In this document: positions 20,632 through 28,500 of the stretch, piece by piece | Position numbering within the stretch: position 1 is the stretch's first letter | How the letters are laid out: the number at the start of each line of letters is the position of its first letter | Assembly (NCBI GenBank): GCA_023954415.1 | Contig: JAMLIB010000011.1 | Coordinates: forward strand, 62,001-126,000 | DNA length: 64,000 nt | Source: Trueperaceae bacterium | GTDB taxonomy: Bacteria > Deinococcota > Deinococci > Deinococcales > Trueperaceae | Reading direction: 5' to 3' | The notes under the pieces: generated by a model | What the model was told of the DNA's origin: nothing | The model's input: the letters and a program-made list of their open reading frames with translations, nothing else | Database searches by the model: none | Program-made: the position numbers and the translations under genes

Positions 20632-20669
20632 CCTCTCTGGCTGACCGGTCGACCGGTCAGCCAGAGAGG
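20632..20669. repeat. 38-bp perfect palindrome between divergent genes
   Basis: A perfect inverted repeat with no spacer: 19-nt arms meeting at TC|GA, with core CTGACCGGTC-GACCGGTCAG. It lies between the divergent tgt promoter (-35 side) and the riboswitch promoter at 20703. Length and position suggest an operator of a dimeric or tetrameric repressor (TetR-like cores are often TGAC...GTCA), although a cruciform or hairpin role is possible. Confidence 0.8.
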
Positions 20670-20702
20670 CGATTAGTTCACTCACATGAGGGTCGGATGT
20701 GC

Positions 20703-20708
20703 TATAGT
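20703..20708 (+). promoter_or_regulatory. -10 element of the riboswitch transcript
   Basis: TATAGT, the best hexamer upstream of the first riboswitch. Predicted start is near 20715, followed at once by an AGGAAGT-cgagc-ACTTCCT hairpin (20716-20734). No convincing -35 is visible. Confidence 0.5.
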
Positions 20709-20734
20709 CGCCCACAGGAAGTCGAGCACTTCCT

Positions 20735-20809
20735 GCTTGGACGCTGAGAAGCCTGGCTCGTAATTTGGGCGCTTGAGTCAGGTGGAGCGAGTAGCGCAAC
20801 CGGCCAGGT
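20735..20809 (+). ncRNA. c-di-GMP-II riboswitch, copy 1
   Basis: Matches the class II cyclic di-GMP aptamer consensus. P1 is formed by GCTTGG (20735-20740) and CCAGGT (20804-20809). The central stem is CCTGGCTC with GAGTCAGG. The conserved TTGGGCGCTTGA loop pairs with GTAGCGCAACCGGCC to make the pseudoknot (GCGCT/AGCGC), as GCAC/GUGC does in the Clostridium acetobutylicum reference. In that class, c-di-GMP binds the pseudoknot core. The class is known from Clostridia and Deinococcus. Confidence 0.9.
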
Positions 20810-20898
20810 GAGTGTCCCCTCATCGAAAAGTGCCGTCAACGTCCGAGCGCGGGCACGTGTGCCCGCCGCCCGAACCGTTCGGGCACCGAGCCTCACGG

Positions 20899-20976
20899 CT
20901 TGGACTTGGAAGCGATGAAGCCTGTTCTGCATCTGGGCGCTTGGAACAGGTGGAGCTAGTAGCGCAACCGGCCAAG
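20899..20976 (+). ncRNA. c-di-GMP-II riboswitch, copy 2
   Basis: Same aptamer, 164 nt downstream of copy 1. P1 is CTTGG/CCAAG and the central stem is CCTGTTC/GAACAGG. Compared with copy 1 these stems have changed in a compensatory way while the loop and pseudoknot sequences (CTGGGCGCTTG, AGTAGCGCAACCGGCCA) are identical. That is covariation, evidence that both copies are under selection as RNA. It lies about 85 nt before the first GH26-like lipoprotein gene. Confidence 0.9.
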
Positions 20977-27639: not shown

Positions 27640-27802
27640 GGTGCGTTCGTCCTTCCTAACGGTCTCGAGAACGTCTTGACGAGCACCTTACCGGGCGCTC
27701 TCTGACAACATCCTCACGTTACACGGCCCACCCGGAGATTCATGAGATGCCCGTGACCGCGTGCGCGCTCGGCGGCCCGCGCGACCGGCCTCTATCCTCA
27801 CC

Positions 27803-27829
27803 TGTGAGTTCCGTGTGCGAACTCTCACA
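27803..27829. promoter_or_regulatory. Inverted repeat upstream of the 3D-domain gene (possible operator)
   Basis: TGTGAGTTC and GAACTCTCACA face each other across a 7-nt spacer; the right arm has a 2-nt insertion. The repeat lies immediately upstream of the TAACAT hexamer at 27840, where it would cover the -35 region. Confidence 0.5.
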
Positions 27830-27839
27830 TTCAGTCTGC

Positions 27840-27845
27840 TAACAT
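27840..27845 (+). promoter_or_regulatory. -10 element of the 3D-domain gene
   Basis: TAACAT. The ATG at 27844 lies inside the hexamer, so translation should start at GTG 27871, which has GGAGG 10 nt upstream. Confidence 0.5.
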
Positions 27846-27870
27846 GCCGCGACTGGGAGGTGGTGCCCTA

Positions 27871-28500
27871 GTGGCGCTGCACATCAGCGGCAAGCTCGTG
27901 GCCATAGGGCTCGTGGTTGCCGCCCTCATCACCGCCTTCAGCTCGCCACGCACCGAACCGCCGGTTCCGGTCGCTTTGGAAGTAGCTCCGTTCGCGGACG
28001 TCGTCGAGCCTCCGGCCGACCACCCCGGCGACTCGGACCCGAGCAACGCCTTGCTCGGCCCCACCGCCAACCCCCGCTTCGTCCTGCGCGCCACGGGCTA
28101 CAACTCCCACGAGAGCCAGACCGACGCCTCGCCGTTCGTCACCTCGACGGGCGCGCGCACGGCCTTCGGGGTGGTGGCGGTCAGCCGCGACCTCCTGGGA
28201 GGCGAGTTGCCGTACGGCTCGCTCGTGCGTATCCGCGACCTCGGCAACTACCACACGGGGCGCGGCGTCGGCGCCTTCCAGCAGTTCCTCGGCGATCACC
28301 TCTTCATCGTGGAGGACACGATGCACGCGCGCAAGACCCAGCAGATCGACGTCTGGTTCGAGAGCTACTCCCAGGCCGTCAACTGGGGGGTCCGCAAGGT
28401 GGAGGTGGAGCTCATCCGCTACGGCCGCAGCGGTCACGAGTTCATACCCAGCTCTGCTCCGACCTTCGAAGCCACCCCCGTGCTCATCGCCTCGCGCTAA
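27871..28500 (+). CDS. 3D-domain (RlpA/MltA-like fold) membrane-anchored protein
   Basis: 209 residues from GTG 27871; GGAGG at 27856-27860. An N-terminal hydrophobic anchor (KLVAIGLVVAALITAFSS) and a Pro/Glu/Asp-rich linker precede a 3D domain at about 70-165. That domain is a double-psi barrel with a conserved aspartate triad, here Asp85, Asp149 (VEDTMHA) and Asp160 (QQIDVWF). Flanking motifs are RATGYNS, GVVAVSRDLLG and LPYGSLVRIRD. In MltA and Firmicutes proteins this fold cleaves or binds peptidoglycan. It is divergent from the GT2-SLT gene across about 230 nt, so both may work on the envelope. The LolC-like permease begins 8 nt after its stop. Confidence 0.8.
   Translation: MALHISGKLVAIGLVVAALITAFSSPRTEPPVPVALEVAPFADVVEPPADHPGDSDPSNALLGPTANPRFVLRATGYNSHESQTDASPFVTSTGARTAFGVVAVSRDLLGGELPYGSLVRIRDLGNYHTGRGVGAFQQFLGDHLFIVEDTMHARKTQQIDVWFESYSQAVNWGVRKVEVELIRYGRSGHEFIPSSAPTFEATPVLIASR

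Follow-up and report, generated by a model that had tools for sequence, protein, structure and literature searches.

Our analysis has shown that a c-di-GMP-II riboswitch, a GH26 gene and a gene for a GT2 synthase fused to a lytic transglycosylase domain (GT2-SLT) form a real, conserved and relocatable module. We propose, with a probability of roughly 60%, that this Trueperaceae-specific module serves to synthesise and trim a glycan at the cell surface, which is probably a beta-glucan, and that its trimming side is under c-di-GMP control.

The window, i.e. the whole 64-kb stretch of DNA that was analysed (G000:C11:62001-126000), belongs to a member of the Trueperaceae (Deinococcota) whose 3.2-Mb genome is held in 30 contigs. 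Nine GGDEF domain matches are encoded in that genome, which makes c-di-GMP signalling plausible in this organism. From left to right, the locus consists of tgt (minus strand), two c-di-GMP-II aptamers (plus), the genes for GH26a, GH26b and a GSDH-family dehydrogenase (plus), the convergent GT2-SLT gene (minus), and the genes for a 3D-like protein, a LolC/E-like permease and recX (all plus). Every element named in an earlier, sequence-only reading of this DNA was recovered by Rfam and Pfam matches; the 3D protein falls below its cut-off, so that "3D-like" is a fair description. The main features are as follows.

20730 to 20814, plus strand: c-di-GMP-II aptamer 1 (RF01786, 70.5 bits, E 8e-14)
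20900 to 20982, plus strand: c-di-GMP-II aptamer 2 (RF01786, 73.7 bits, E 1e-14)
21064 to 22056, plus strand: GH26a, a lipoprotein of Lic26A type (PF02156, E 3e-11; E156 and E264 present)
22141 to 23388, plus strand: GH26b, a second GH26 lipoprotein, start codon uncertain (PF02156, E 6e-12)
23407 to 24756, plus strand: GSDH-family (PQQ-type) sugar dehydrogenase (PF07995, E 7.5e-30; HHGG and RNP motifs)
24856 to 27639, minus strand: GT2-SLT, 927 aa (PF13632, E 9e-9, and PF01464, E 5e-8)
27844 to 28500, plus strand: 3D-like protein, a neighbour outside the module (PF06725, below cut-off)

Conservation and boundaries of the module

Of the 111 genomes searched across the order, 23 encode GT2-SLT (E<=1e-30), one copy each, and all 23 are among the 39 Trueperaceae. 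The sequence-only reading had regarded most of the block as linked by proximity. For the riboswitch, GH26 and GT2-SLT the link is more than that: GH26 (E<=1e-40) and GT2-SLT occur together in 20 of the 39 Trueperaceae, and in 17 of these 20 they lie a few kb apart on one contig, in several genomic settings. Three genomes have only GT2-SLT (G012, G015 and G026, the first with a distant GH26 scoring 1.2e-35), no genome has only GH26, and 16 have neither. Co-occurrence gave a Fisher p of 2.6e-8 by genome (39 Trueperaceae) and 0.0019 by genus (17 genera of the 61-genome set), kinship being ignored in both. Outside the 17 are G006 and G022, where the genes are on different contigs, and G029, which is interrupted by contig ends. 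Gene order and strand vary, with a convergent arrangement in most genomes, a divergent one in G016 and, in G024, a shared strand on which GT2-SLT comes first.

A scan of 84,980 species genomes, which used two short peptide patterns only and could thus miss distant relatives, gave 19 loci with GT2-SLT relatives. Eighteen carried the titles Trueperaceae, Truepera, Deinococcales, Deinococci, Deinococcota or Thermus/Deinococcus group. The sole exception (L142) is a contig assigned to a "Hyphomicrobiales" MAG; it encodes the N-terminal half of GT2-SLT at 49% identity and is there probably through mis-binning or, alternatively, through transfer. No GT2-SLT match was found in 72,556 plasmid records. 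At one locus from another family (G041, L122: 3457-6869 and 7189-7974), the nearest GH26 relative and a GT2 gene overlap by a single base; a GH16 gene lies behind, a polysaccharide deacetylase gene is nearby, and no c-di-GMP-II site was found there. This overlap means that GH26 beside a processive-type GT2 recurs, as a second, independent link.

The right-hand boundary of the module was set by comparing its neighbours in relatives. Conservation of the block, as the earlier reading had drawn it, extends to the riboswitch/GH26/GT2-SLT core and stops short of the 3D protein, which that reading had counted as part of a glycan locus and which we rejected as a member. Its PF06725 score is 15.1 bits against a cut-off of 23.8, its match to YuiC has an E of 0.58, and no PDB entry matched it under 0.5. 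Matches to this protein occur in 40 of 41 genomes, module-less ones included. Among 25 Trueperaceae genomes searched for both neighbours, tgt and the 3D gene are directly adjacent with no module between them in 11, at gaps of ~110-500 bp (G008, G010, G011, G012, G015, G016, G018, G020, G021, G023 and G024); three of these (G016, G020, G024) have the module elsewhere and two (G012, G015) have GT2-SLT elsewhere. The module sits between tgt and 3D in eight genomes (G009, G019 and six genomes of genus g1, G002 being divided between two contigs), and neither arrangement was seen in six (G006, G007, G013, G014, G017 and G022). The existence of both empty and occupied sites indicates that the module entered or left as a unit and that tgt, 3D and the permease are its neighbours. 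On the left, the interval from tgt to the riboswitch promoter contains a perfect 38-bp palindrome (20632-20669); the siblings G003 and G005 have it in degenerate form or not at all, so it probably lies outside the module.

The synthase fusion and the hydrolase operon

GT2-SLT comprises a GT2 domain with membrane helices (residues ~1-550), a disordered linker (567-661) and a lytic transglycosylase domain (~662-915). Residues D74, D150-D152 (DGD), T264-D266 (TED) and Q343-W347 (QxxRW) are unchanged in 19 of 19 aligned rows; the D, DxD, TED and QxxRW motifs are those that we take to mark processive GT2 polysaccharide synthases. The SLT glutamate E731 is likewise unchanged in all 19 rows, and assignment of this domain is further supported by its fold and by a PF01464 score of 32.9 bits (cut-off 21.3). 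Sequence comparison of the whole protein with the PDB gave weak matches only, from 0.002, and a PgaC/IcaA match of the GT2 part was weak and below cut-off. An AlphaFold2 model (18 sequences) had a mean pLDDT of 80.5. Using VIA-align 2, its residues 1-550 were aligned to PcManGT (Z 24.4, rmsd 3.4, 327 aligned), the hyaluronan synthase 8snc (Z 21.7, rmsd 4.4, 397 aligned) and BcsA 9fnn (Z 21.2, rmsd 4.9, 373 aligned), with chitin synthases also among the best structural matches. The alignments to hyaluronan synthase and BcsA include the membrane helices, yet only about three such helices are predicted, with strong hydropathy segments around residues 393, 420 and 528. The SLT part alone (pLDDT 89.8) best matched MltC (Z 14.0, rmsd 2.5, 139 aligned), with Slt70, MltF and MltE next. 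Hydropathy and positive flanking charge suggest that this domain is in the periplasm. No Pfam match to a PilZ domain of the BcsA type was found in GT2-SLT, which has the SLT domain at its C-terminus instead.

Both lipoproteins score well above the Pfam cut-off for GH26 (43.6 and 45.9 bits against 20.2) and have lipoboxes, at residue 32 in GH26a and residue 61 in GH26b. Residues E156 and E264, the GH26 catalytic pair, are unchanged in 19 of 19 GH26 rows and align with the corresponding positions of Clostridium thermocellum Lic26A. A profile built from these rows matched Lic26A over the whole domain at E 1e-69, whereas no other GH26 entry (mannanases, beta-1,3-xylanases and some without a name) did better than 8e-11; with GH26a alone the values were 8.5e-49 against 1.9e-6. 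Lic26A was called the single reported GH26 lichenase in a 2020 paper, in the available text of which a second, with lichenan and xyloglucan activity, was reported (PMC7157769). This affinity points to a beta-glucan substrate, perhaps one of mixed linkage, and GH26a and GH26b may accordingly cleave beta-1,3-1,4-glucan.

The third gene encodes a member of the glucose/sorbosone dehydrogenase (GSDH) family whose nearest solved relatives are 3das and 2ism. It starts 18 nt past the end of GH26b, and in three relatives (L092, L096 and L110, own gene calls) GSDH and GH26 overlap by 4 nt. This close spacing makes GSDH the probable third member of the riboswitch operon, very probably also under riboswitch control, so that the earlier restriction of direct riboswitch control to the lipoprotein genes was probably too narrow. 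Operons of this kind hold one or two GH26 lipoprotein genes. GSDH is a common, not a constant, member of the module, being present at 11 of 17 linked loci; none lies between or beside the other genes in G013, G020, G024, G030 and G036, and G016 is cut by a contig end. In G013 a polysaccharide deacetylase gene occupies the place between GT2-SLT and GH26 where others have GSDH, which could mean a GlcNAc polymer. A search for PqqC gave no match in the host genome; control genomes gave none either.

The tandem riboswitch leader

Both aptamers exceed the RF01786 gathering score of 53.5 and are thus identified by covariance model as c-di-GMP-II riboswitches, for which ligand binding and an effect on expression are predicted. 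No other RF01786 match was found in the 3.2-Mb genome. Matches of the variant model RF03169 were confined to the same two sites with lower scores, and RF01051 had no match in the host genome or in the control genomes. The class is common among relatives, with matches in 47 of 61 related genomes. Wherever the contig extends 5′ of GH26, which is the case in 18 Trueperaceae genomes, one GH26 gene or more has an aptamer in front of it in the same orientation (G020 and G029, cut there by contig ends, are outside the 18). The aptamers are in tandem in 14 (six of genus g1, G016, G019, G024, G027, G030, G033, G035 and G036) and single in four (G006, G009, G013 and G022). Additional GH26 copies in G022 (L116) and G006 (L117) have no aptamer, and the synthase gene was never under a riboswitch in any arrangement seen. 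Tandem c-di-GMP-II riboswitches are already known, the available part of one paper giving 59 doublets, mostly in Paraclostridium and before a surface-anchor gene (PMC9481103); according to the available text of a survey, c-di-GMP riboswitches, contiguous ones included, are enriched in Deinococcota (PMC12452182).

Several other aptamer sites were encountered in relatives. The large genomes of genus g2 (G006, 6.0 Mb, and G022, 5.6 Mb) have 21 and 17 c-di-GMP-II matches, respectively, far above most relatives. At L123, L127 and L128 (G020, G016 and G013), c-di-GMP-II aptamers are adjoined by repeated small proteins (cluster c10, seven members) with apparent signal peptides; the one member scanned had no Pfam match. 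L156 (G038) has a c-di-GMP-II tandem (2567-2804, minus strand) back to back with a c-di-GMP-II-GAG element (RF03169; 2913-3000, plus strand). At L129 (G029), genes at 844-4695 include those for a polysaccharide deacetylase, a UDP-glucose dehydrogenase and a GT2; the nearby tandem aptamers (260-567, minus strand) do not lead into them in the stretch examined.

Within the leader, the following elements were located in addition to the aptamers.

20703 to 20708, plus strand: TATAGT, a -10-like hexamer just 5′ of the leader (consensus match only)
20716 to 20734, plus strand: 5′ hairpin with a 7-bp stem, AGGAAGT/ACTTCCT (14 leader sequences, read by eye)
20807 to 20824, plus strand: hairpin 3′ of aptamer 1, its loop UGUCCC (20813-20818) complementary to 20976-20981
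20976 to 20981, plus strand: candidate inter-aptamer helix, formed by GGGACG (3′ edge of aptamer 2) with the loop 20813-20818
21026 to 21056, plus strand: GAGCGCCU (21026-21033) and AAGCGUCCGG (21047-21056), complementary to the aptamer-2 pseudoknot strand CUGGGCGCUU

TA-rich hexamers like TATAGT stand at the same place in most relatives, and the 5′ hairpin, which abuts aptamer 1, has both stem sides altered in other genera. For the loop-to-flank helix, 75 of 78 cells were paired over 13 leaders, and at three of the six positions both partners vary. In the anchored test, which used hexamers picked by eye and 13 of the 14 leaders (G019, having no such pair, was omitted), 12 of 720 permutations of six distinct rows were equally good, the independent rows being few. 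The best complementarity score of the 14 GH26 leaders had a mean of 17.4, compared with 12.2 (sd 0.8) for shuffled flanks; flanks swapped between leaders still scored 14.9, so much of this signal is shared sequence. The pairing was not seen in ten other tandem leaders, none of which is in front of GH26. Taken together, these analyses give modest support to the idea that the two aptamers may be coupled through a loop-to-flank helix with compensatory changes.

The strands at 21026-21056 lie beside the Shine-Dalgarno sequence GGGGA (21055-21059) and are a candidate switching strand. In the leaders, a strand complementary to the pseudoknot strand of the last aptamer, GGGCGCUU, precedes the start codon. 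Judged by base-composition shuffles only and with kinship of the leaders ignored, this anti-aptamer strand alone is significant (p<=0.03) in 11 of 18 leaders and not in the other seven (G005, G002, G030, G035, G036, G006 and G022). Constrained folding of the 18 leaders, with a crude constraint that enforced the P1 core only and blocked the pseudoknot strands, left Shine-Dalgarno accessibility mostly unchanged with no consistent direction: G013 and G002 lean ON, G019 leans OFF, and G006 has opposite signs at the Shine-Dalgarno sequence and the start codon. A clear OFF switch, which we had considered, was dropped for this reason.

Proposed function and comparison with known systems

Based on these observations, we predict that the GT2 domain would polymerise a glycan and extrude it, that the periplasmic SLT domain would loosen or open the peptidoglycan where the chain emerges, and that the GH26 lipoproteins would trim or release the polymer. 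Binding of c-di-GMP to the tandem leader would set the amount of hydrolase (and of GSDH), and two aptamers may give a sharper response than one. The second messenger could either raise the hydrolase, for co-production with matrix, or lower it, such that matrix is kept when c-di-GMP is high and freed when it falls. The suggestion that the block could make, trim and place a glycan agrees with the predicted domains for making (GT2), trimming (GH26) and wall passage (SLT), and has lost its 3D component. That c-di-GMP sets the balance holds for the hydrolase side only, where aptamers precede GH26; the synthase, which by gene arrangement appears to be transcribed separately from the hydrolase operon, has neither a riboswitch nor a PilZ hit.

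Other explanations of the locus have to be weighed. GH26 and GSDH might instead form a scavenging operon for environmental beta-glucan or mannan, with an unrelated synthase next door and c-di-GMP timing the feeding. Relatives of Lic26A are, in the available text of the 2020 paper, cellulosome enzymes for plant polysaccharides (PMC7157769), and GSDH could oxidise the sugars set free. We consider this reading quite improbable, since GH26 is confined to Trueperaceae that have GT2-SLT (20 of 20) and keeps its place next to it as the genomic setting changes, none of the block proteins was recognised as a carbohydrate transporter, and no carbohydrate-binding module was found by Pfam on GH26a or GH26b. 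The nature of the polymer is a separate question. Hyaluronan and chitin synthases among the best structural matches, deacetylase genes at the G013 module and near the G041 locus, and the weak PgaC/IcaA match would all suit an amino-sugar polymer (PNAG-, chitin- or hyaluronan-like) cut by a GH26 clade of shifted specificity. The strong affinity of GH26 to Lic26A, the GH16 gene adjoining the G041 relative and an equally good structural match to BcsA speak against it, and we know of no GH26 that cuts GlcNAc polymers; an amino-sugar product therefore seems rather unlikely to us.

The role of the SLT domain is similarly open to another reading, namely ordinary peptidoglycan turnover, or cutting of the new glycan to set its chain length, with no part in wall passage. 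Chitinase-type relatives do appear lower down the same fold list, but its top rows are lytic transglycosylases, the catalytic glutamate is kept, and tethering to the synthase, being permanent, favours a local role, so that we regard this reading as possible although doubtful. Our preferred reading remains a module that makes and trims a surface beta-glucan. A more far-reaching version of it, which we offer as speculative and on the whole unlikely, is that the aptamers are locked by the loop-to-flank helix into one cooperative switch on a glucanase operon, that a wall-cutting synthase threads beta-glucan through the peptidoglycan, and that in this Deinococcota matrix system c-di-GMP governs matrix release via RNA and not the synthase via protein.

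To our knowledge, the passage of polymers from the inner membrane through peptidoglycan is poorly understood beyond a few systems, and a synthase that carries a lytic transglycosylase as a permanent fusion would be a direct, one-chain answer to it. Control of matrix by c-di-GMP usually proceeds through synthase activation by proteins; here its direct target would be the hydrolase operon, via RNA, and this is the sole c-di-GMP-II target found in the genome. The module therefore suggests a new way of linking signal, polymer and wall. Since it is compact and its boundaries are set by the empty site, it should be transferable to a laboratory host for dissection. Among the papers listed by our searches of the open-licence PMC literature, some of them judged by title and start of abstract, we found none that describes a GT2-SLT fusion or places a c-di-GMP riboswitch before a GH26 operon.

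Individual parts of the module have known counterparts. The Paraclostridium tandems also have two c-di-GMP-II aptamers of the same class per leader, for which the available text predicts pseudo-cooperativity (PMC9481103); relative to that account, the tandem described here differs in phylum, in target and in the candidate base-paired link between its aptamers. Lic26A, by a wide margin the best solved relative of both GH26 proteins, is a cellulosomal enzyme for plant polysaccharides, whereas the present enzymes are lipoproteins beside a synthase. Sinorhizobium BgsA and Romboutsia RiGT2, c-di-GMP-linked mixed-linkage glucan synthases, resemble GT2-SLT as processive QxxRW GT2 enzymes with a predicted beta-glucan product and a link to c-di-GMP (PMC10374906). 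As far as the available text goes, c-di-GMP is proposed to act there on the protein itself (PilZ or C-terminus), whereas here it would act at the RNA leader of the hydrolase, with no PilZ and an SLT domain fused. In the Streptomyces CslA-GlxA-CslZ-LpmP system, as described in the parts of the papers available, exposure of a GT2-made glycan requires a lipoprotein glucanase together with a monooxygenase, and an opening of the peptidoglycan is proposed (PMC9040799; see also PMC11022532 and PMC13432765). Both loci cluster a GT2 with a lipoprotein glucanase, an oxidising enzyme and a proposed peptidoglycan opener. In contrast to Streptomyces, the SLT domain is fused to the synthase, GH26 stands in place of GH6 and GSDH in place of GlxA, and c-di-GMP riboswitches precede the hydrolase operon; the GlxA copper oxidase and LPMO families are absent from the block proteins by Pfam, and GSDH is the sole oxidoreductase. 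We consider the Streptomyces CslA system, although not of the same family, to be the closest analogue that we have found in print.
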